Below, in pieces: positions 14,919-54,436 of a DNA stretch of 64,000 bases. The DNA comes from an uncultured Eubacteriales bacterium (lineage in GTDB: Bacteria > Bacillota > Clostridia > Christensenellales > CALVMC01). Within the stretch, counting starts at the first letter, position 1; the number at the start of each line of letters is the position of its first letter. Position numbers and translations under genes: made by a program. The notes beneath the pieces were generated by a model. That model ran no database searches. It saw only the letters and a list, made by a program, of their open reading frames with translations, and was not told the origin of the DNA. The stretch is taken from assembly GCA_949296455.1 (NCBI GenBank), contig CASFOZ010000007.1:1-64000 (forward strand). The letters run 5' to 3'.

Positions 14919-15358
14919 TATTTTTCCTCCCTGTCGTAAAAGATTATTCCGTTAAGGTGGTCATATTCATGACAGAAAGCTCTTGCGGTAAAATCGGTAA
15001 CTGTATATTCGACCGGTTTTCCGAAACGGTCAAAACCTTTAATCTTAACTTTTTTTGGACGGGCAACTTTACAACTGAAATTTTTTACGCTGAGACATGC
15101 TTCATCGTCTATCTGAACTCCTGACTCTTCTACAATTTCTGGGTTAACGATTTCATAATAATTATTGTCGGCGCTGACTACAAATACCCTTTTAAGTATT
15201 CCCACCTGAACAGCCGCAAGACCTGCACCGTTTGCCTTTTTCAGAGTATCTTTCATATCATCCAATAAGACGGCAAGTTTATCGTCGAATACTTCTACCG
15301 GTTTGGAAATTTTACGAAGTATCTCGTTTTCGTCCGTTACAATATCTCTAATAGCCAT
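14918..15358 (-). CDS. def: Peptide deformylase
   Basis: Removes the formyl group from nascent N-terminal Met. All three metal-site motifs are present: motif 1 GAGLAAVQ (residues 44-51), motif 2 EACLS with metal ligand Cys88, and motif 3 HEYDHLNG with His130, Glu131 and His134. Two substitutions differ from the textbook motifs: V for P in GxGLAAPQ, and A for G in EGCLS. At 146 aa it is compact, near the short end of the family. The metal and catalytic residues are intact, so it should be active. It lies 9 bases after priA. Confidence 0.96.
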   Translation of the reverse strand: MAIRDIVTDENEILRKISKPVEVFDDKLAVLLDDMKDTLKKANGAGLAAVQVGILKRVFVVSADNNYYEIVNPEIVEESGVQIDDEACLSVKNFSCKVARPKKVKIKGFDRFGKPVEYTVTDFTARAFCHEYDHLNGIIFYDREEK

Positions 15359-15367
15359 AAAGCCCTC

Positions 15368-17557
15368 CTAATTAAGATTTTGCGGATTTATTTCTGCAAA
15401 AATCGTAGTTTTTTTATTTGCGGCGTCATCGGCAATCTGAAATATTTTCTCAGTGAGATAATCCTTTCTTTCAGGTCTTATTCTCATAAGAATCTGATAG
15501 CGGAATTTCGACTGTATTCTTTTTACCGGCGCTTTCATTGCCTGCATATAAATAAAATCGTTTAGATTTTCTTTTACTAAACTTTTAATTTCATTATACA
15601 TTTTTTTTGTCGTAAATACAACATCGTTTTCGTTTTCCGAAGTAACAAGTATCCTTAAAATAACCGAAAACGGAGGATAGAGAGTTACTTCCCTTGAATT
15701 GATTTCTTTTTTATAGAACCCTTTATAGTCGTAATTTTTTGCATATCTGAAAATATAATGGTTAGGCGCATATGTTTGTAATATAACTTTACCGGGATGC
15801 TTTGCTCTTCCTGCCCGTCCCGACATCTGAGTAACGAGCTGAAATGTTCTTTCGGGGCTTCTGTAATCGGAAAAATACAGACTCATATCGGCATCGAGAA
15901 TTCCGACCAGACTAACATTTTCAAAGTCGTGACCTTTTGCTATCATTTGCGTTCCTACAAGGACATCGGCTTGACCGGAACCGAACTTATCGAGTATATC
16001 GACATAAGCGGTTTTCGTTCTTGTGGTATCGTTATCCATTCTTAAAGTTTTGACATCGGGAAATAACTTATAGATTTCGTTTATCACCCTTTCGGTACCG
16101 ATTTTTCCTTGTCTGAAATTATCGCTTTTACAGTTCGGACATTTGTCGAGCATTTTGTATTGTTTTCCGCAATAATGACATTTCAACAAATTATCTTCGC
16201 TGTGATAGGTTAAAGAAACATCGCAGTCTTCGCACTTTGCGACGTATCCGCATTCACGGCACATAAGAAACGAAGCATAGCCTCGTCTGTTGACAAAAAG
16301 CATGGCTTGGTTTTTGTTTTTGAAACAGTTTTCAAGTTCGATAAGAAGTTTATTTGAAAACAAACCGAGATTGCCGTTTCTGAGCTCGCTCGTCATATCC
16401 ACAATTTCTATTTCAGGCATTAATTTGCCCGACACTCTCTCGGGCATCTCGATAAGTTTCAATTCGCCCAAAACGCTTTTTCTGTAAGTTTCAACCGACG
16501 GCGTCGCACTTCCTAATATCATATAAGCGTCGTTGTAATCGGCTCTGAATTTTGCAATATCGGCAGCATTGTAACGGGGATTGCTTTCGCTCTGATAACT
16601 TGCGTCGTGCTCTTCGTCGAGAATGATTATTCCTATATTTTTAATAGGCGCAAAAAGCGCAGACCTTGCTCCTAATACGATTTTGGCTTCACCCGAATTT
16701 ATTCTTCTCCACTCGTCGAACCTTTCTCCCGTTGAAAGTCCGCTGTGAATTAATGCTACCTTGTCTCCAAATCTTCCTCTGAAATTTTTAAGCATCTGGG
16801 GCGTTAACGATATTTCGGGTACAAGCATTATGGCGGTTTTGTTCTGACTTAATACTTTTTCTATTGCGGATAAGTAGACTTGTGTCTTACCGCTTCCCGT
16901 AACACCGTGCAAAAGAATATGTTTGTTATCGCCTTTAAAAATTTCGTTTAAAGCATCTTGCTGCCTTTGAGTTAAAACTAAACTTTTACTTTCCGTCACG
17001 CCTGTTTTTTTATACGGAATTCTGTTAGTTTCTATATATCCCGCTTTAAAGCAACCGTCTTTAATAAGAGACATTACGCTTTGAGCGCCGAATTTAGCAT
17101 TCATAATGCTTTGATATTCGGTTTTTTTATCTGCAAGATATTCAACTGCCTGCCTCTGATTTTTAGCGTTCTTATGTAATTTTTTTAATATATCCTCTTT
17201 GTCTGCTTCTTCGCTAAAATTGACAACCATAAGTTTTTTTATCTTACCGCTGACGAGTATCTGCGGAACGCATAGTCTCAAAGCGTCGACTCTTTTTATA
17301 TGATAGGCTTTTTTCATAAACGAAGCAAGAGCCAAAGTTTCGCTGTCAAAACACGGATTTTCGTCGACAACACTTAATATGTTTTTAAGTTTTTCAAATT
17401 CGCTTCTATCTTTGACTTTTACCACATAACCCAAAGCAGGCTGTCTGCCGAACTCGATATTGACTAAACAACCTGCTTTAACATTCATTCCTTCCGGAAT
17501 ATTATAGTCGAATTCTTTATCGAATTCGCAAACATCCACTACAATTTCAGCTACCAT
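15368..17557 (-). CDS. priA: Primosomal replication restart helicase
   Basis: PriA reloads the replicative helicase at stalled forks. The order is an N-terminal DNA-binding domain (about 1-190), then a superfamily 2 helicase with Walker A GVTGSGKTQVYL, DEEHDASYQSES, GSATPS, VGTQMIAKGHDF and QMSGRAGRA. Inserted in it are eight zinc-binding cysteines (CRECG, CEDCD, CHYCG and CPNCKS). At 729 aa it is the expected length. The start overlaps coaBC by 11 bases. Confidence 0.97.
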   Translation of the reverse strand: MVAEIVVDVCEFDKEFDYNIPEGMNVKAGCLVNIEFGRQPALGYVVKVKDRSEFEKLKNILSVVDENPCFDSETLALASFMKKAYHIKRVDALRLCVPQILVSGKIKKLMVVNFSEEADKEDILKKLHKNAKNQRQAVEYLADKKTEYQSIMNAKFGAQSVMSLIKDGCFKAGYIETNRIPYKKTGVTESKSLVLTQRQQDALNEIFKGDNKHILLHGVTGSGKTQVYLSAIEKVLSQNKTAIMLVPEISLTPQMLKNFRGRFGDKVALIHSGLSTGERFDEWRRINSGEAKIVLGARSALFAPIKNIGIIILDEEHDASYQSESNPRYNAADIAKFRADYNDAYMILGSATPSVETYRKSVLGELKLIEMPERVSGKLMPEIEIVDMTSELRNGNLGLFSNKLLIELENCFKNKNQAMLFVNRRGYASFLMCRECGYVAKCEDCDVSLTYHSEDNLLKCHYCGKQYKMLDKCPNCKSDNFRQGKIGTERVINEIYKLFPDVKTLRMDNDTTRTKTAYVDILDKFGSGQADVLVGTQMIAKGHDFENVSLVGILDADMSLYFSDYRSPERTFQLVTQMSGRAGRAKHPGKVILQTYAPNHYIFRYAKNYDYKGFYKKEINSREVTLYPPFSVILRILVTSENENDVVFTTKKMYNEIKSLVKENLNDFIYMQAMKAPVKRIQSKFRYQILMRIRPERKDYLTEKIFQIADDAANKKTTIFAEINPQNLN

Positions 17558-44718: not shown

Positions 44719-45240
44719 CGGTTTTGAAGTTTTTTTTGCGGCTTCCAAATAAATTTTATTTGCAAGTGCGTTAAAATCCACGGTTGAAAAGTCGCAATCT
44801 TCTAAAATCATATCGGCGGTGTTTTTGTAAATTTCCAAACGGCTTTCGTAAAGCTGCCAAAGTTCCATTGAGGTTTTATTTACCGCAAGCGGTCTTGACT
44901 GGCTTTTATGGATTCTCTGAAAGCACTTATCGAAAGGCGTATTCAAAAAAACGCAGAATGTATCTTTTGCTACGATTTTAGCGCAGTTCTCGTTATGTAA
45001 AGTTCCGCCGCCAAGAGCAAGTACAAAATCGTCGAAAGTTAAAGTTTCTATAAGAAGTTTTTTTTCTTTTGTGCGGAAATACTTCTCTCCGTTTATGTTG
45101 ATAATGTTTCTTACCGACATATTGCAGTCTTTTTCGATTATTCTGTCCAAATCAAGAAAATTTAAATTTAATCTTGCGGCAAGTCTTTCCGAAAAATAAC
45201 TTTTGCCCGACCCCATAAAACCGGTGATTGTAATTTTCAT
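44707..45240 (-). CDS. aroK: Shikimate kinase
   Basis: Phosphorylates shikimate at the 3-position. Walker A is GFMGSGKSYF; shikimate contacts are LDLDRIIE and the ALGGGT segment; the lid includes SQSRPLA. At 177 aa it is full length. It overlaps aroE by 4 bases and belongs to the polyamine transcript rather than the aro operon behind it. Its last codons contain the -35 box of the aro promoter. Confidence 0.95.
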   Translation of the reverse strand: MKITITGFMGSGKSYFSERLAARLNLNFLDLDRIIEKDCNMSVRNIININGEKYFRTKEKKLLIETLTFDDFVLALGGGTLHNENCAKIVAKDTFCVFLNTPFDKCFQRIHKSQSRPLAVNKTSMELWQLYESRLEIYKNTADMILEDCDFSTVDFNALANKIYLEAAKKTSKPLTM

Positions 45241-46070
45241 TGAAATTTCTCCTCTAAAAATTCGTTTGCCTTTCGTGTTAGCGATTCTATCTGTTCATCG
45301 TTGAATTCACTTCCAAGCCAAATGCTTTGAGACATCGCCGCCTGACTTACAAGCATTACAAGCCCTGTCGAAGCTTTTATTCCGTTATCTCTCGCTAATT
45401 TTACCAAAGCCGTAGTTTTGGGATTATAAACCAAATCGTAAACATATTCAGAGTTTAAAACTACATCTTCGCTTACGGGAATACCTTTTATATCGGGATA
45501 TGTTCCCACGGGCGTGCAATTCACTATTAAATCGTATTTTCCCTTAACTTCGTTTATATCCTGTATTAAGCATTCTTTTAAATTAAAATTTTTCAGACGA
45601 TTTGAGATATCCCGTGCTTTGTTTGCCGAAGTACTTCTGACCGCAAAGGTAATATCGGTTTCAGAAAGAGCCAACTCAGCCGCAACTACCCCTGCCGCTC
45701 CGCCCGCTCCTAATATCAAGGCGCTTTCGATATTCCTATTGCAGATTTTTGAAAGACCTTTAATAAAGCCGTATCCGTCGGTATTGTAACCTTTTAATAT
45801 TCCGTTCTCTCTTTTAACGGTATTCACCGCACCGTATAAGGCTACTTTATCGTCTGTTTCATCGAGATATTTCAAAATAGTACTTTTATAAGGTATAGTA
45901 ACATTAAATCCTTTAAGAGTATAAATTTCGCTGTTTTTTCCGAGTTCCTGTTCGTTTATATCGTAAACATCGTAACTGTAATTAAAACCTGAAAGTGCAA
46001 AAAGTTCCTTATGAATAAAAGGCGAAATGGTATGCTTTAAATTTTTACCTATAAGCCCGTAATCTTTCAT
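45237..46070 (-). CDS. aroE: Shikimate dehydrogenase (NADP)
   Basis: Reduces 3-dehydroshikimate to shikimate. The start YGLIGKNLKHTISPFIHKE carries the shikimate-binding serine region; NVTIPYKSTILKYLDE holds the catalytic Lys (with Asp in AVNTV...NTDG); ALILGAGGAAGVVAAELA is the nucleotide loop. The length of 277 aa is normal. It starts at the stop of nspC (1-base overlap), so its expression follows the polyamine genes. Confidence 0.96.
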   Translation of the reverse strand: MKDYGLIGKNLKHTISPFIHKELFALSGFNYSYDVYDINEQELGKNSEIYTLKGFNVTIPYKSTILKYLDETDDKVALYGAVNTVKRENGILKGYNTDGYGFIKGLSKICNRNIESALILGAGGAAGVVAAELALSETDITFAVRSTSANKARDISNRLKNFNLKECLIQDINEVKGKYDLIVNCTPVGTYPDIKGIPVSEDVVLNSEYVYDLVYNPKTTALVKLARDNGIKASTGLVMLVSQAAMSQSIWLGSEFNDEQIESLTRKANEFLEEKFQ

Positions 46071-47203
46071 TATGACAACCTTTTTTTAAAATCTTCGTAC
46101 CCGAATTTTTTAACCGTAATAAATTTCCCGCTTTTATCTATTACATCGATATCGGGAAGATTGAAACCGTTAAAAGTATTGTTTTTTACCATAGTATAAT
46201 GCGCCATATCGCAAAAAATAATCTTATCGCCCGCATCGAGTTTTTTATCGAAGCGGTACCTTCCTACAACATCGCCTGCAAGACAAGTAGGTCCTGCCAA
46301 TATATATTCGTACCTACCTTTATCGCAAGAATTCAAGACCTTCGGCGTGTACGGCATTTCGAGAACATCGGGCATATGGCAAGCTGCCGATGCGTCTATT
46401 ATTGCGATATCGCAGCTGTTTTTGACAACCGATAAAACCTGCGCTACTAAATAGCCCGTATTAAGAGCCACCGCCTCTCCCGGTTCGAGATAAACTTTGA
46501 GAGGATATCTTTCTTTAAAATCCTTTACAATTTTAATAAGTTCTTCTCTGTCGTAATCCTCTCTTGTTATATGATGACCGCCGCCGAAATTAATCCATTT
46601 AAGATTTTTGAAGAATTTGGAAAACTTCTGTTCAACTACTTTTAAAGTACGCTTTAAAACATCGCTGTTCTGTTCGCACATAGTGTGAAAATGAAGTCCT
46701 GAAACTCCGCTTGGAATTTCTTTTAAATCGTTTATCTTTATTCCAAGCCTTGAATTTTTTGAACACGGATTATAAATTTCCGTTTCTATTTCCGAATATT
46801 CGGGATTAATTCTGAGCCCTACTTCTATATCTTTACCGCTCTTTAAAATTAAAGGATAAAACTTTTCATAATCGCTTATAGAATTAAATACGATATGGTC
46901 TGCATATTTAAGAATTTCGTTAAATTCGCTTTCTTTATATGCGGGGGAAAAAATATGGCATTCTCTTCCCTTCATATATTCAAAACCGAGCCTTGCTTCA
47001 AAAAGAGAACTTGCGCAACTTCCTTTAAGATATTCGGCTATCAAAGGATAAAAATAAAACATTGAAAAACCTTTCTGCGCAAGTAAAATTTCTGCTCCGC
47101 TGTTTTTTTGAACATAGTCGAGAATTTCAAGATTTTTTATAAGTAAATTTTCATCGACAATGTAGCAAGGCGTTTCGATTTCGGAAAGTAAATTTAAATC
47201 CAT
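46070..47203 (-). CDS. nspC: Carboxynorspermidine/carboxyspermidine decarboxylase
   Basis: A PLP enzyme of the alanine-racemase fold that decarboxylates carboxyspermidine to spermidine (or carboxynorspermidine to norspermidine). The PLP lysine is Lys44 in LLAQKGFS. GLHFHTMCEQNSD, WINFGGGHHITREDYD and YLEPGEAVALNTGYL are typical NspC segments. The length of 377 aa fits. It follows the matching dehydrogenase with a 1-base overlap, forming the complete two-step route. Confidence 0.95.
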   Translation of the reverse strand: MDLNLLSEIETPCYIVDENLLIKNLEILDYVQKNSGAEILLAQKGFSMFYFYPLIAEYLKGSCASSLFEARLGFEYMKGRECHIFSPAYKESEFNEILKYADHIVFNSISDYEKFYPLILKSGKDIEVGLRINPEYSEIETEIYNPCSKNSRLGIKINDLKEIPSGVSGLHFHTMCEQNSDVLKRTLKVVEQKFSKFFKNLKWINFGGGHHITREDYDREELIKIVKDFKERYPLKVYLEPGEAVALNTGYLVAQVLSVVKNSCDIAIIDASAACHMPDVLEMPYTPKVLNSCDKGRYEYILAGPTCLAGDVVGRYRFDKKLDAGDKIIFCDMAHYTMVKNNTFNGFNLPDIDVIDKSGKFITVKKFGYEDFKKRLS

Positions 47204-48408
47204 TAATCTACGAGCTCCGGATTGAAAGTCTCTTTGAAAGGAAGCCCGAACTTATTTAAATTTTCCATAAACGGATCGGGATTGAACTCTTCTATATTAT
47301 GAACGCCGGGCTTATTCCATGTTTTCGTCGCAAGCATCATAGCTCCTATCATGGCAGGTACTCCCGTTGTGTACGATATAGCCTGCGAACCGACTTCCTT
47401 GTAACATTCCTGATGGTCGCAAACATTATAAACATAATAATTAATATTCTTACCGTCTTTTTTACCCGTAAAAATACACCCTATATTTGTTTTTCCTTTT
47501 GTTCTTGGACCTAAACTTGCAGGGTCCGGAAGAACGGCTTTTAAAAACTGCAAAGGAACGATTTTCTTTCCTTCGAAGTCTATAGGTTCAATCGAAGTCA
47601 TACCTACATTTTCAAGAACCTTTAAATGAGTCAGATACCTTTCCGAAAAGGTCATAAAAAATCTTATTCTTTTTATTCCCTTGATATTTTTTGCAAGAGA
47701 CTCGATTTCTTCATGGTGTAAAAGATACATATCTTTTTTGCCGATTTCCGGAAAATCGTAAACCCTTTTGATTTCCATAGGTTCGGTTTCTATAAACTTA
47801 CCGTTTTCAAAGTAACTGCCCTTTGCGGTAACTTCTCTTATATTTATTTCGGGATTGAAGTTTGTCGCAAAAGGATAACCGTGATCGCCTGCGTTAGCGT
47901 CAAGGATATCGAGATAATTGATTTCGTCAAAATAATGTTTCATCGCATAAGCCGAAAAAACCCCCGTGACTCCCGGGTCGAAACCGCTCCCGAGAAGCGC
48001 CGTTATCCCCGCTTTTTCAAATCTGTCGTTGAATTCCCATTGCCATTTGTATTCGAATTTTGCAGTATCCTTAGGTTCGTAATTTGCCGTATCGACATAA
48101 TTCTTTCCCGTTTTAAGGCAAGCTTCCATAATCGTCAAATCCTGATACGGAAGGGCGAGATTCAAAACTACATCGGGATTGAATTTTTCGATAATGGCTA
48201 TTACTTCTTTGGTATTGTCTGCGTCAAGTCGAGCGGTCGTAATTTTTGTTGAAGTACCCTTTTTTTCGATACTTGCTTTGATAGCGTCGCACTTTGAAAG
48301 TGTTCTCGAAGCAATACAAAGTTCGTTAAACACTTCACTGTTCTGACAACATTTGTGTGCTGCAACGGAAGCTACTCCGCCTGCTCCTATCAATAGAATT
48401 TTACTCAT
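47203..48408 (-). CDS. Carboxy(nor)spermidine dehydrogenase, saccharopine dehydrogenase family
   Basis: Condenses L-aspartate semialdehyde with putrescine (or diaminopropane) and reduces the product to carboxy(nor)spermidine. The N-terminal Rossmann loop is LLIGAGGVASVAAHKC, with typical saccharopine-dehydrogenase-like segments NLALPYQDLTIMEACLKTGKNYVDTANYE and LLGSGFDPGVTGVFSAYA. Pairing with nspC, rather than lysine genes, decides the function. The length of 401 aa fits. It overlaps speB by 8 bases. Confidence 0.92.
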   Translation of the reverse strand: MSKILLIGAGGVASVAAHKCCQNSEVFNELCIASRTLSKCDAIKASIEKKGTSTKITTARLDADNTKEVIAIIEKFNPDVVLNLALPYQDLTIMEACLKTGKNYVDTANYEPKDTAKFEYKWQWEFNDRFEKAGITALLGSGFDPGVTGVFSAYAMKHYFDEINYLDILDANAGDHGYPFATNFNPEINIREVTAKGSYFENGKFIETEPMEIKRVYDFPEIGKKDMYLLHHEEIESLAKNIKGIKRIRFFMTFSERYLTHLKVLENVGMTSIEPIDFEGKKIVPLQFLKAVLPDPASLGPRTKGKTNIGCIFTGKKDGKNINYYVYNVCDHQECYKEVGSQAISYTTGVPAMIGAMMLATKTWNKPGVHNIEEFNPDPFMENLNKFGLPFKETFNPELVD

Positions 48409-49264
48409 AGTCTTTACCTCCCAAACTTAACAATAATTCTCTTATAATTTTACAAGCCGTCTGCGTAGAACAGCCTGACATATCGTAAACAGGACAAAGT
48501 TCAGTAACATCGAGTCCAACGATATTGAGTTTTGAAATTTTATAAACCGCTTTAAGCAAGTCGTTGAATCTTACTCCCCCTGCTTCGGGAGTTCCCGTAC
48601 CCGGAAAACACGAAGGGTCTAAAATATCCAAATCGAGAGTAAAATAAACCGGTTTGTCTTTAAGGGCTTCAACCACTTCGTCCAGTCCCGTAAAATCAAA
48701 CTTTGTCAGTATAGTGGAATTTTTTGCGAATTCAAACTCTTCCTTTTCTCCGCTTCTTATTCCGAACTGATATATTTTCCCTTCGCCTAAAATATCGAAA
48801 CATCTGCGCATAACTCCTGCGTGAGTAAGTCCCACTCCCAAGTAGTTATCACGCAAATCGGCATGAGCGTCGAACTGAATAACCCTTAAATCTTCGTAGA
48901 CTTCGGACGCCGCAAGAACGCTTCCTAATGTTACGAGATGTTCTCCACCTATCATAAAAGGAATTTTTCCGTCTCTGTAAATTCTGAGAGCGTAACCTTT
49001 TATTTCGTCGAGAGTCATATCGGCATCACCGATAGGAAGTTCCAAATCGCCGTCGTCGCAGACTGAAATCTCTCCGATATCCTTATCGATATACGGACTG
49101 TAAGTTTCCATTCCGAAGCTGTCGTTTCGTACCGCCGAACTTGCAAAGCGTGCGCCCGGTCTGAAAGACGTTGTACTGTCAAAAGGTGCGCCGAAAAGAA
49201 TTATATCGGCATCGTCGTATGCTTTGTCGCAACCTAAAAAAACTTTCGGTAATTTGTTAGCCAT
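48401..49264 (-). CDS. speB: Agmatinase
   Basis: Hydrolyses agmatine to putrescine and urea with a di-manganese site. The ureohydrolase motifs are GGEHLVTLG, VIQFDAHADLRDNYLG and LDLDILDPSCFPGTGTPEAGG. The length of 287 aa is normal for SpeB. It lies between speE (8-base overlap) and the carboxyspermidine dehydrogenase, and links SpeA to both spermidine-forming routes. Confidence 0.95.
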   Translation of the reverse strand: MANKLPKVFLGCDKAYDDADIILFGAPFDSTTSFRPGARFASSAVRNDSFGMETYSPYIDKDIGEISVCDDGDLELPIGDADMTLDEIKGYALRIYRDGKIPFMIGGEHLVTLGSVLAASEVYEDLRVIQFDAHADLRDNYLGVGLTHAGVMRRCFDILGEGKIYQFGIRSGEKEEFEFAKNSTILTKFDFTGLDEVVEALKDKPVYFTLDLDILDPSCFPGTGTPEAGGVRFNDLLKAVYKISKLNIVGLDVTELCPVYDMSGCSTQTACKIIRELLLSLGGKDYE

Positions 49265-50099
49265 TTAAAAGCTCCTTTACATAGTTAGGAAGTTTAAAAG
49301 CTCCCTCGTGAAGTTCGGTATTATAGTAACCTGTTTTAATTTTTAACTTATTCCATTTTTCCTTATTAAGGTAGTAAGGCGAATATTTTTTCGAAGCGAA
49401 TCCGAAAAGCCAATGTCCCGAAGGATAGGTCGGAATATGAGCCTGATAAACCTTATGCAAAGGAAACACCGCTTTTATATTTTTGTGGGCTCTTTGCATG
49501 GCTTTGGCGTCCTGCGGATAATAAGGGCTTTCGTGTTGATTGACGAGAATTCCGTCGTCTTTGAGCGCCTTGAAACAACTTCCGTAAAACTCTCTTGTAA
49601 AAAGACCTTCACCGGGTCCGAAAGGGTCAGTCGAATCGACGATAATCAAATCATACAAATCGGTTTTGTTCCTTACGAATTTCAAGCCGTCTTCATAATA
49701 AATTTTAACCCTTTTGTCGTTAAGTTTGCAAGCGGTTTGATTAAAATGTTTTTTGCATACTTCGACGACTTTTTTATCTATTTCCACCAAATCTATTGAT
49801 TTTACGCATTTATATTTGCAAAGTTCCCTTACGGTGCCGCCGTCGCCTGCTCCTATAACAAGAATATTCTGTGCGTTCGGGTGAACCGCCATAGGAACAT
49901 GAGTTATCATTTCGTGATAAATAAACTCGTCTTTTTCTGTAATCATAAGAAAGCCGTCGAGAGTAAGAATTCTTCCGAAATCGAAGGAATCGAAGATATC
50001 TATTCTTTGAAAATCGCTTTGAACGCTTACAATCTGCTTGTCTATTTTTATAGAAAATTTGACGTTAGGCGTATGGTTTTCGCTATACCAAAGTTCCAT
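49257..50099 (-). CDS. speE: Spermidine synthase
   Basis: Transfers aminopropyl from decarboxylated SAM to putrescine. The SAM-like binding loop VIGAGDGGTVREL, the DGLKFV and VDSTDPFGPGEGLFTREFY segments and HESPYYPQ follow the family order. The length of 280 aa is normal. It is 5 bases after speA. Confidence 0.96.
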   Translation of the reverse strand: MELWYSENHTPNVKFSIKIDKQIVSVQSDFQRIDIFDSFDFGRILTLDGFLMITEKDEFIYHEMITHVPMAVHPNAQNILVIGAGDGGTVRELCKYKCVKSIDLVEIDKKVVEVCKKHFNQTACKLNDKRVKIYYEDGLKFVRNKTDLYDLIIVDSTDPFGPGEGLFTREFYGSCFKALKDDGILVNQHESPYYPQDAKAMQRAHKNIKAVFPLHKVYQAHIPTYPSGHWLFGFASKKYSPYYLNKEKWNKLKIKTGYYNTELHEGAFKLPNYVKELLNG

Positions 50100-50104
50100 T
50101 TGAG

Positions 50105-51556
50105 TTACTCCTTTAAAACTTTTATATAATCGGCTTTTATATCTTCGGTTCCGAGAAGCTGACAGCCTTTGTCTTTTGCGTAACTTATATATTCAAGTAT
50201 TTTATCTGTAATTTCTTCGCCCGGAGCGAGAATAGGTATTCCCGGCGGATAACACATAACGAATTCCGAACATATTTTTCCTGCGCATTCTTCCCTTTTC
50301 AAAGAGATTTTATCCGAATAGAAGGCTTGTTGCGGAGGTAAAACAACTTTCGGAACGATATATTCGCTTTCGAACATACCGCTTTTGTCTTTTGAATAAA
50401 GCCTTTTGATTTCGAAAAGAGCAGATATAAGTCTTTCGATTTCAAGCGCTCTGTCCCCTGCGGAAATTATGGCAAGAATGTTCGCAATATCACCGAATTC
50501 AATTTGTATATTGTAATCGTCACGAAGAATATCGTAAACTTCTCTTCCTGCAAGACCTATATCTCTTGTATATACCGATAATTTTGTTTTATCGAAATCG
50601 AAGACATATTTATTGTCTATAAGTTCGTCGGCAAAAGCATAGTAGCCGCCAAGACCGTTAATCTCGTCTCTTGCGTAATTTACGAACTCCAAGGTTTTTT
50701 TGAATATTTCCTTTCCGTTTTGTTGAAGATTTTTTCTTGCAAGGTCAAGAGAAAGCATTAAAAGATAACTTGCGCTTGTTGTCTGAGTAAGGTTAATAAT
50801 CTGTCTTAAATAATCTGCGTTTACAGTTTCACGAGCAAGAAGAACGGAGCTCTGAGTCAAAGAGCCGCCCGTTTTATGCATACTGACCGCCGACAAGTCC
50901 ACACCTGCCGCCATAGCCGAAAGGGGCAAATTATCTCCGAAATAAAAATGTGCGCCGTGTGCCTCGTCGGCAAGAAGAAGCATATTATGTTTTTTGGTAA
51001 TTTCGGAAATTCTTTTAATATCGGAACAAATTCCGTAATAAGTGGGATTATTGATAAGAACGGCTTTTGCGTCCGGATTCTGCTTGATTTTCCGTTCTAC
51101 TTCTTCGGCGCTGACTCCCAAGGCAATACCGAGTTTTTCGTTTATACCGGTATCGAGATAAACCGGGATACCGCCTCCAACGACAAGAGCATTTATAACG
51201 CTTCTGTGAACGTTTCTCGGCAAAATGATTTTCTCTTTAGGTTTAACCGCATACATAATCATAGCCTGAACGGCTGCGGTAGTTCCGTTAACTATAAAAA
51301 AAGCCTCTTTGGCGCCGAAAGCTTCGGCGGCAAGAGCCTGAGCTTCTTTTATTACTCCTTCGGGATTGCAAAGATTGTCGAGAGGCTTCATTGAATTGAC
51401 ATCGCATTTCATACAAGTCTCCCCTAAAAATTCGGTAAGTTCCCTGTTGCCTCGTCCGCCCTTATGCCCGGGGACATCGAAGGGAACGACTCTGTTAGAC
51501 AAATGCTTTTTAAGCGCATCGAATAGCGGCGCTTTGAAAAAGTCCCGTTCTTTCAT
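50105..51556 (-). CDS. speA: Arginine decarboxylase (PLP, Orn/Lys/Arg family)
   Basis: A 483-aa fold-type I decarboxylase like Bacillus SpeA. The motifs are [10 protein letters not shown] at the start, [26 protein letters not shown] and [13 protein letters not shown], in which Lys228 binds PLP. The C-terminal small domain includes [13 protein letters not shown]. Members also include lysine and ornithine decarboxylases; arginine is favoured because agmatinase lies two genes downstream. It overlaps speD by 4 bases. Confidence 0.92.
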
Positions 51557-52362
51557 TTTTTATATATATTTACCCCGCTGAAAATTTCTATCATTTCCTT
51601 TCTTAAACAGTCGGTAATTTCAAGTCTTTTTTTCGGCGGCAATTCGTAAACATCGGTATTGAAAAGATAATTCTGAAGTTCTATATCTTTAATAAGCATT
51701 TTTGTATGGAAGATATTTGACTGATAGACGTTGACATCTATTGCGTCGTATTTTTTTAGAGTCTTTTCGTCTATATAATCCTGAATGGAAGTTATATCGT
51801 GGTCTATATAATATTTGACGCCCTTATCGTCTCTTGTAAAACCACGGACTCTGTAATCGATAGTCATAATATCGGAATCGAAATTTGCTATAAGATAATT
51901 GAGAGCGGTAAGCGGAGAAATTTCGCCGCAAGTAGAAACATCTATATCGACTCTGAAAGTTGAAATTGCGTTATCGGGATGGCTTTCGGGAAAGGTGTGA
52001 ACGGTAACATGACTCTTGTCGAGATGGGCGCAAACTGAATTGCGAGGCATTTCGAAATATTTACCTTTATTACAAGAAATATCTATTTCGTCGGGAGTAA
52101 GATTATCTTCCGCAATAAGAATGTTTACGGAAGCCCCTTGCGGGTCATAATCCTGTTTTGAAATATTTAAAATGGCGGCACCTATCAAATGCGTGACATC
52201 GCATAGAATTTTAGTTAAACGTTCGGAATCGTATTGCTCGTCGATATATGCAATATAATCCTGCTGTTCTCTTTTACTTTTTGCGTAGCAAACGTCATAA
52301 ATACTGAAACTTAAAGTTTTAGTAAGGTTATTGAAACCGTATAATTTTAATTTGTTTTCCAA
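51553..52362 (-). CDS. speD: S-adenosylmethionine decarboxylase proenzyme, E. coli type
   Basis: Provides decarboxylated SAM for SpeE. The 269-aa proenzyme aligns with the longer E. coli class, not the 120-aa Bacillus class: [25 protein letters not shown] at the start and self-cleavage at [13 protein letters not shown], between Lys116 and Ser117, the latter becoming the pyruvoyl group. Translation starts with TTG at 52362, chosen because no nearby ATG exists and the E. coli protein begins at this point. A candidate -10 TATAAT lies at 52402-52407; I see no clear -35. It is the first gene of the polyamine operon. Confidence 0.94.
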
Positions 52363-52484: not shown

Positions 52485-54194
52485 CTACTGTTTTTTATAA
52501 ACTTTGAGACCTATACTGTTAAGAAGAGGTATCATACCGTAAATGGGGTCTTTATCTTTCTGTTTCAAAACATCGTCGAGTTCAATCCAATGGACGATAT
52601 AAGGAGAAGTTTTCTTTTCGAGATTTTTTTCTTTTCCGTATTTCCAGTCGTTAGCAACCTTTTCGTTTACCCATCTCTCGTGTTCCATACGGGCAAGTTT
52701 TTCGACTTCTTCTTCCGTGAAATATTTTATTTCGTTAAAAGGAAGTTCTTTGTCGGAATAAAAATACCCCAAAGTTTCAAGTTTATAAGCATAGGTTTTA
52801 GCCTGAGCGATATTATCGAGTTTATATTGAAGGTCTAAATTTTCCCAACTTTCCATTCTTGGAAGCAAAGTGACATTGTTGTCCTTTTGATTTTTAATAT
52901 AATTTTCGTGTATTTTTTTCGCTATATTCTGAAGATTTATAAAAAGCTGTGAAGATTCGCTTAATTTAACTCTTTTTGCCGTTTTCTGAATATCGCAAGA
53001 GATATCGATATTATCGAATAAACTTTTGATATTTATTGTAGAACAAATTTTGCCGCTCTTTTTTCCTGCATATTCCTCGTCGTATTCCGATGCGAAATGA
53101 TATACGAAATTAAGACTGTCGTCATTTAAATCTATATCGTAATCCATAGGAGCAACGGCGTTTTTACTTTTCTTTCCGTAAGGGATTCTGTTCCAGTCCT
53201 GAAGTTCGTCGCAAAGGATAAGCAAATATCCCATAGGGTGAAGTTCTGCGTTAAGAACGGGAAAGTTAAGGCTTTTTATAAGATTGTGCGGATAATAGTT
53301 ATGAAGAAGCACCGCAGCGGCAGAATCCACAATAAGATTGAAAAAGAAAGAAGGATTGAGATTTGCCTTCTGAATTATGAAATAATACCATTTAAGAATG
53401 GTAAGAGCGCTGAAATAACCGTGGTCGGTAAAACCGGATTTTTGCATTCTTTCGATATTCTGTTTAAGCCTTTCGTTAATCATAGAAAGGTCGATACCCA
53501 AATTTTTATGAAAATTTTCGGCAATTAAATTCAACGGATTTAAAAGTTCTTCGGGAGCAAACTCGGGATAATCGTTTTTGAAAGAAGCGGAAATTTTATC
53601 TACCGAAATAATTTCCGGAAGTTTAATAAATTCGTCGAAATCGTAAATTTCCACTTTTGCAAGAAATTTTTTTTCATTGTTATCGTTAAAGCCGTTCAGA
53701 AAATTTATATACTGTTTAATCTGTTCGTTGATAATTTCAAAAGGATAACCGATATCGTGAAGAAGGGATATTATTCCCCATCTGACGAAGAAATCGTCTT
53801 TTTCGTTATCGTAATAATTTTTGGAAGTATCGAAAAATTTTTCTTTAAAAATATTTCTGAACCTGTCGTTGCTTTCGTAAATAGCCATACCCAAAGCAAA
53901 GATATAAACCGAGTGAGTATAATGGTCTCTGAGTTTATCTAAAAGAGAACCTGCAAGTTGTTCATAGGAACACATCGTGTCGATAAGACCTACAAAACTT
54001 CCGTCGTTGTTTTTATTTTCGATATACTTGAATGTTTCGAAAAAAGCAAGTATTACGTCGTAAGCGTCTTCTCTTCTACCCGTTTCGATAAACTTCATCA
54101 AAGTTTTTTTGATAAGTTTTTTATTTTCCGAATTGGAAGCCGCAATAAAATCATCGTCGATAAATCTATTAACAAAAACATTTAATTTTGACAT
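52485..54194 (-). CDS. HD-type phosphohydrolase-like protein with a C-terminal RyR repeat
   Basis: A 569-aa soluble protein of unknown function. Residues about 80-335 resemble an HD fold: RDHYTHSVYIFALG (His91, His94), SLLHDIGYPFE (His146-Asp147), FTDHGYFSA (Asp257-His258) and LILCDELQDW (Asp329). A middle stretch (about 335-490) has no recognised motif. Residues 493-569 match a ryanodine-receptor-type RyR repeat: EEEVEKLARMEHERWVNEK, DWKYG, KKTSPYIVHW and IPLLNSIG. No signal or membrane segment. It is monocistronic with an extended -10 promoter. Catalysis and ligand are unproven. Confidence 0.7.
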   Translation of the reverse strand: MSKLNVFVNRFIDDDFIAASNSENKKLIKKTLMKFIETGRREDAYDVILAFFETFKYIENKNNDGSFVGLIDTMCSYEQLAGSLLDKLRDHYTHSVYIFALGMAIYESNDRFRNIFKEKFFDTSKNYYDNEKDDFFVRWGIISLLHDIGYPFEIINEQIKQYINFLNGFNDNNEKKFLAKVEIYDFDEFIKLPEIISVDKISASFKNDYPEFAPEELLNPLNLIAENFHKNLGIDLSMINERLKQNIERMQKSGFTDHGYFSALTILKWYYFIIQKANLNPSFFFNLIVDSAAAVLLHNYYPHNLIKSLNFPVLNAELHPMGYLLILCDELQDWNRIPYGKKSKNAVAPMDYDIDLNDDSLNFVYHFASEYDEEYAGKKSGKICSTINIKSLFDNIDISCDIQKTAKRVKLSESSQLFINLQNIAKKIHENYIKNQKDNNVTLLPRMESWENLDLQYKLDNIAQAKTYAYKLETLGYFYSDKELPFNEIKYFTEEEVEKLARMEHERWVNEKVANDWKYGKEKNLEKKTSPYIVHWIELDDVLKQKDKDPIYGMIPLLNSIGLKVYKKQ

Positions 54195-54210: not shown

Positions 54211-54240
54211 ATTATAACATATTAATTATAATTTTTACAA
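54211..54240 (-). promoter_or_regulatory. Promoter of the HD-RyR gene
   Basis: TTGTAA (54235-54240) and TATAAT (54211-54216) are separated by 18 bases, with an extended TG (TGTTATAAT). The ATG is 16 bases from the -10 box, so the leader is short; AGGTG is the ribosome-binding site. Confidence 0.75.
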
Positions 54241-54334
54241 TACTTTATAATAAATTAAAATTTAAAAAAGACCTGATAATAGTTAAATTAAAAAAGCCAA
54301 AACTCAATATAAAAATCAAATCGATATAACCAAA

Positions 54335-54366
54335 TAAAAAACCGCAATATAAATTGCGGTTTTTTA
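54335..54366 (-). terminator. Terminator of glmS
   Basis: A 9-bp stem AACCGCAAT/ATTGCGGTT (54340-54348 with 54353-54361) flanked by A and T tracts on both sides. It lies 70 bases after the glmS stop. The symmetrical design would stop transcription from either side. The bases between it and the HD-RyR promoter are plain AT-rich sequence. Confidence 0.88.
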
Positions 54367-54436
54367 TGTATATGTTGACTTATTTATAAAATCTATTTAG
54401 AGTTTTGAATTTACAATAAAACAATTAATTGCAAAC

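Follow-up and report, generated by a model that had tools for sequence, protein, structure and literature searches.

Gene and local setting

The window, the whole stretch of 64,000 nucleotides that we analysed, comes from an assembly of 1.38 Mb and encodes on its minus strand, at positions 52485-54194, a reading frame of 569 codons with an ATG start at 54194, preceded by a Shine-Dalgarno-like AGGTG. A second genome of the genus (an uncultured Clostridia MAG) carries a 99% identical copy, and full-length homologues with 30-36% identity occur elsewhere; the reading frame is therefore a genuine gene and not a chance ORF. We call the protein HD-RyR, after a probable HD phosphohydrolase region in its N-terminal half and a RyR repeat at its C-terminal end.

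Upstream lies glmS, separated from the HD-RyR gene by a strong intrinsic terminator (54334-54367, minus strand) with a 15-bp stem followed by T-rich sequence, and downstream a gap of 122 bp precedes the next gene. A promoter-like site with a TG-extended -10 element (TTGTAA-18-TATAAT) is found at 54211-54240 of the minus strand, a match to the consensus only, of a kind that was not above chance overall (13 found versus 10 expected). The first-pass annotation had described the gene as standing alone with its own extended -10 promoter; the terminator, the TG-extended -10 and the downstream gap bear out the former, HD-RyR being a single-gene unit in the window, while the promoter is retained as a consensus match of roughly chance frequency. 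No TIR, SLOG or channel gene adjoins HD-RyR within the window. Further along the minus strand, at 45237-52362, lies a polyamine cluster that, by reading only, appears to place two spermidine routes side by side, with genes resembling those for AdoMet decarboxylase, Orn/Lys/Arg decarboxylase, spermidine synthase, agmatinase, carboxynorspermidine dehydrogenase and carboxynorspermidine decarboxylase.

The RyR repeat

HD-RyR certainly carries a C-terminal RyR repeat. As the first-pass annotation had proposed for residues 493-569, the Pfam profile PF02026 matched residues 494-565 (52500-52715, minus strand; H505, W508, W517 and D547) with E=1.8e-11 and 44.6 bits against a gathering cut-off of 27.4, and 35 of 36 relatives matched it as well. 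A profile built from the 36 relatives found the animal ryanodine receptors RyR1/2/3 at E values of about 1e-37 to 1e-39 and a B. thetaiotaomicron RyR protein at 1e-19. In an AlphaFold2 model of the protein (mean pLDDT 84.9, pTM 0.85), the best fold match in the PDB was Repeat12 of human RyR3 (Foldseek E 7.6e-5, probability 1.0; TM 0.60 on the target), and the matching RyR3 Repeat12 entries include ATP-, ADP- and AMP-PCP-bound forms. Ryanodine receptor Repeat12 (RyR1-3) thus provides the best PDB matches in both sequence and fold; unlike the receptors, which carry tandem repeats within a giant animal calcium channel, HD-RyR has one repeat in a soluble protein of 569 residues, with tandem repeats in some relatives. 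Against viral structures, Foldseek returned phage RyR proteins only. CpcD and similar weak Pfam matches, which fall in the RyR part where their position was shown, were dismissed.

Phage RyR proteins bind 2'/3'cADPR, and one of them, RyDEP, cleaves these molecules (PMC13232231, preprint May 2026), which renders outdated the initial remark that the role of bacterial RyR repeats is unclear. RyDEP contacts its nucleotide through H75, W78, H100 and D117, with H100 contacting the phosphate (PMC13232231). By sequence alignment rather than superposition, we propose H505, W508, S530 and D547 as the counterparts of these residues in HD-RyR. Among 91 relatives spanning the RyR region, H505 and W508 are kept in all and D547 in 90. 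The position of RyDEP H100 is Ser in HD-RyR, Ser or Thr in most relatives and His in 29 of 93, so the ligand of HD-RyR may differ from that of RyDEP. A nucleotide pocket in the RyR repeat is likely, for a ligand that need not match RyDEP's. The two proteins share the RyR fold family, an H-x-x-W and an Asp that serve as nucleotide contacts in RyDEP, and a setting of TIR-made cADPR, whereas the phage proteins are evasion proteins tested as R12-like domains and HD-RyR is encoded by the host, with an HD fusion, a linkage to TIR genes and Ser in place of the phosphate-binding His.

A probable HD phosphohydrolase region

Residues 64-345 (53160-54005, minus strand) form a probable HD phosphohydrolase region in which H91, H94, H146-D147, D257-H258, H298-N299 and D329-E330 are invariant. 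The spaced His, HD and Asp residues that had first suggested this identity are real: 91 of 93 relatives (of which 85 are non-redundant at 90%) retain the complete set H91, H94, H146, D147, D257, H258, H298 and D329, and the two exceptions both lie inside one four-copy array, L081. Of the metal residues originally put forward, His91, His146, Asp147 and Asp329 are indeed invariant; the canonical motif-I histidine, however, is His94 ('RDHYTHSVY'; compare 'RFRHTCSVV' in YqeK-like HD proteins) and not the likewise invariant His91. The order H94, HD146-147, H258, H298, D329 resembles the H-HD-H-H-D type seen in PgpH- and YqeK-like proteins of the same genome. HD phosphohydrolases with these ligands (PgpH, YqeK, HD-GYP) share the ordered motifs; HD-RyR differs in having about 110 residues from HD to the next His, and HDxGYPxE rather than HDxGK.

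In a scan for five ordered motifs, derived from five HD proteins that this genome encodes, HD-RyR scored 58, compared with 21.6 +/- 4.7 (maximum 42.8) across 2000 shuffles. The 36 family members all scored 46-62, above a background maximum of 38.8 among 217 proteins with one exception, a protein that is GGDEF/HD-GYP by sequence. The scan placed its third block at 226 and not at H258, so that H258 is proposed as a ligand from its invariance. Sub-threshold matches to PF01966 were found in 10 of the 36 relatives (E 0.01 at best); in the cases inspected they cover the HD motif, the longest extending from the motif-I His to HD. HD-RyR itself, searched as a single sequence, gave no HD profile match in Pfam, NCBIfam or PADLOC, and the profile search that the first-pass annotation had suggested thus returned no significant HD match for it, an outcome that the annotation had named as refuting its proposal. 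The model of residues 64-345 is all-helical and confident, and gave no significant Foldseek fold match in the PDB (exopolyphosphatase 3rf0 at E 1.9). In the search for HD, a profile (A4) run against PDB sequences gave a single match, a coiled-coil that we judged spurious, and hhalign against an HD alignment of five sequences, too thin a template, was uninformative. Judged by the order of its motifs and the invariance of its ligands, the N-terminal half very probably belongs to the HD phosphohydrolases as a distant member, an identity that had been proposed from the outset and that stands on these features and not on a significant profile or fold match.

Distribution and gene neighbours of relatives

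A search of 84,980 GTDB species genomes yielded 390 candidate stretches encoding relatives of HD-RyR, and 77 loci were read, ignoring spurious opposite-strand ORFs in GC-rich loci. The hosts include Clostridia and other Firmicutes, Chloroflexi, Coriobacteriia and, among archaea, Methanobrevibacter, and the occurrence is patchy within the class (5 of 391 genomes at E<=1e-20). In a scan of viral_contigs, the single HD-RyR protein found no match and the alignment found one locus. A scaffold from a gut phage collection, MT836912, encodes a relative with a TIR protein directly after it.

The survey of homologues' neighbours proposed with the first-pass annotation proved informative. TIR genes lie within three genes of HD-RyR at 34 of 384 positions, versus 2 of 493 farther away in the same loci (p=6e-11); for TIR, DUF4062, SLOG or RyR genes together the figures are 63 of 384 versus 2 of 493 (p=9e-22). 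We built the TIR model from sequences of the window's order and class, some of them from HD-RyR genomes, and the SLOG and DUF4062 models from HD-RyR neighbours, so that for the latter two the enrichment tests position only. At least one partner of the four types occurs in 45 of 53 loci outside Methanobrevibacter, versus 4 of 23 Methanobrevibacter loci. Partners confirmed by Pfam are TIR_2 proteins with LRR, NB-ARC/TPR or Big domains, DUF4062-AAA/NACHT-WD40 proteins (DUF4062-STAND), DUF4231/SLATT_3 membrane proteins with a SLOG-like N-terminus (SLOG-2TM), TrkA_N-RyR proteins, Pkinase-LRR proteins and, in Methanobrevibacter, Pkinase-HSP70 and Metallophos proteins. Many operons consist of TIR-STAND and HD-RyR with no other evident effector; at several loci the operon also encodes SLOG-2TM or RCK-RyR as a second candidate effector.

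The linkage extends to fusion. At L081 (12204-15407), within a tandem array of four HD-RyR genes, a single protein has the architecture TIR-TIR-HD-RyR-RyR, with its HD residues partly lost. Tandem HD-RyR-RyR forms occur at L059 and L064. HD-RyR is followed by a SLOG-like domain at L076, L078 and L082, which we take as the true fusions, a count of fused SLOG including slightly overlapping neighbours; SLOG reads cADPR in Thoeris (PMC9503650; PMC11204291). RyR and TIR are also found together with no HD: at L134 (G012) and L135 (G039), a stand-alone RyR protein of 92-93 residues is encoded between a TIR gene and a gene for an RCK-like membrane protein with a RyR-like end, the TIR of G012 being fused to an FtsK-type ATPase.

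At L020 (6937-8775), and similarly at L024, L043 and L082, a membrane protein with TrkA_N and/or a C-terminal RyR adjoins HD-RyR. Such TrkA_N (RCK) RyR proteins are possible bacterial RyR-gated membrane effectors; like HD-RyR they end in a RyR sensor and adjoin HD-RyR or TIR genes, and they differ in having a membrane/RCK effector where HD-RyR has HD. The Methanobrevibacter loci mostly lack TIR and have Pkinase-HSP70 and Metallophos genes instead. There, a recurrent cassette (L070 at 15112-15909, L059, L077, L080, L081 and others) holds a Pkinase-HSP70 fusion, a Metallophos phosphatase and either one or two genes for HD-RyR-RyR, followed by small membrane proteins that match no Pfam family and carry a pore-like 'SNAFTSNGYxVLG' motif.

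The TIR protein of the same genome

The genome encodes one RyR gene, that at 52485-54194, and one TIR_2 protein. The latter, TIR-Sel1, lies on a different contig, C11 (L097, 418-2616, minus strand), and comprises 732 residues with a TIR domain and ten Sel1 repeats. The presumed catalytic Glu, found in 34 of 40 aligned TIRs, is present. Outside the genus, it matches best to TIRs that adjoin HD-RyR or are fused to it, among them Chloroflexi TIRs at 40-43% identity, and these linked TIRs outrank every unlinked TIR of its own order. In a TIR tree it falls among mostly HD-RyR-linked TIRs with weak support (93/38), so that its affinity rests on the best-hit pattern. Among the sampled genomes of the order, TIR_2 occurs in 9 of 9 HD-RyR genomes versus 22 of 43 other genomes (p~0.005, hypergeometric, uncorrected for relatedness). 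TIR-Sel1 is thus a candidate partner of HD-RyR that would be encoded far away from it.

Comparison with known systems

Thoeris (ThsB TIR with ThsA SIR2-SLOG/Macro) likewise pairs a TIR enzyme with a separate protein that joins an ADPR-type sensor domain to an enzymatic one, whereas HD-RyR has RyR instead of or besides SLOG, and HD where ThsA has SIR2 or Macro. Neither of these two ThsA domains was found in HD-RyR or its Pfam-scanned neighbours. An adjacent TIR gene, as for ThsB, is absent next to the gene in the window and present in many relatives; the TIRs linked to HD-RyR match ThsB models weakly. As the defining genes of Thoeris are absent, we assign HD-RyR to the RyR-domain proteins, with a probable HD region, and not to Thoeris. 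PADLOC did not recognise the protein, and a bacterial HD-RyR protein is undescribed in PADLOC, NCBIfam and the literature searched; Burroughs et al. 2015 (NAR), which lies outside that search, may discuss prokaryotic RyR, and priority for bacterial HD-RyR proteins is not certain.

Discussion

HD-RyR is probably an undescribed sensor-effector of a NAD-derived immune signal. In the specific form that we favour, and that may well be correct, the RyR repeat would sense a TIR-made signal of the ADPR type, most likely a cADPR isomer, and switch on the HD hydrolase, in an effector role of the Thoeris type. That TIR enzymes produce cADPR isomers out of NAD is established in other systems, and here the enzyme would be TIR-Sel1. 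The linkage, the fusion and the conserved residues suggest that the RyR repeat binds an adenine-containing, NAD-derived nucleotide. Binding would then activate, rather than inhibit, the N-terminal metal-dependent HD hydrolase, which might act on a nucleotide and so stop growth or phage replication in an anti-phage role; alternatively, its output would be removal of the signal. Counting against this proposal are the lack of an adjacent TIR, the Ser at the position of RyDEP H100, the lack of a significant HD profile or fold match, the silence of PADLOC and the Methanobrevibacter loci mostly without TIR. From the first reading of the gene, the idea that HD and RyR pair in a ligand-controlled hydrolase is upheld, with RyR certain and HD judged by its motifs and invariant ligands. 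The suggestion of nucleotide signalling was right in kind, with TIR/SLOG-type NAD-derived signals (cADPR isomers) indicated and ppGpp unsupported.

Conversely, RyR might capture the TIR-made signal for HD to degrade, ending or buffering the signalling, as a host counterpart of phage RyDEP. RyDEP is a precedent for a RyR protein that destroys 2'/3'cADPR (PMC13232231), and several of the operons hold SLOG-2TM or RCK-RyR as a second candidate effector. The ligand order H94, H146-D147, H258, H298, D329 is that of PgpH- and YqeK-like HD proteins of the same genome, and proteins of these kinds are binuclear phosphodiesterases; the H-HD-H-H-D ligand set keeps this alternative viable. Against it, many operons hold TIR-STAND and HD-RyR with no other evident effector, and both the fusion to SLOG and the tandem arrangement of RyR point to an enzyme under regulation. 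Since the SLOG-coupled effectors and the RCK-RyR parallel favour a sensor plus effector, we consider signal removal rather unlikely as the main role.

Less probable still is a special case of the favoured proposal, in which the RyR ligand activates a SAMHD1/dGTPase-like HD triphosphohydrolase that depletes dNTPs or NTPs. The motifs 'HDIGYPxE' and 'CDELQxWxR' recall those of dNTPases, and phage-restricting dGTPases are known. No dNTPase profile or PDB sequence was matched, however, and H258 and H298, as additional invariant residues, are more in keeping with the H-HD-H-H-D type.

Similarly improbable is a housekeeping regulator of metabolism or stress outside immunity, sensing for example NAD, ADP-ribose or adenylates, a role implied by the early suggestion of a stress response. 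In the genus the gene is an orphan single-gene unit between metabolic operons, animal RyR Repeat12 binds ATP, ADP and AMP-PCP, and the Methanobrevibacter copies accompany kinase-HSP70 and phosphatase genes; yet the patchy distribution (noted above) and the strong enrichment of TIR, STAND, SLOG-2TM and DUF4062 neighbours, typical of conflict systems, speak against such a role. Links to ppGpp and to polyamines found no support among the relatives and were rejected.

The favoured reading, a RyR sensor for a TIR-made signal coupled to an HD output, has a wider and more tentative extension, which we regard as plausible rather than probable. RyR repeats may be ancient receptors for TIR-made messengers of the cADPR type, gating interchangeable outputs (an HD hydrolase, an RCK-type membrane protein, SLOG-coupled forms) in undescribed prokaryotic immune systems, with animal Repeat12 belonging to the same lineage. 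The identity of the cADPR receptor and the direct binding of cADPR by RyR are long-standing questions, and a host-encoded RyR enzyme with TIR-linked and TIR-fused relatives offers a small soluble system in which to study ligand and output. If the favoured proposal is true, TIR signalling would gain RyR as a new sensor and HD as a new output; if the repeats are indeed ancient receptors, this would bear directly on the action of cADPR on RyR channels itself.
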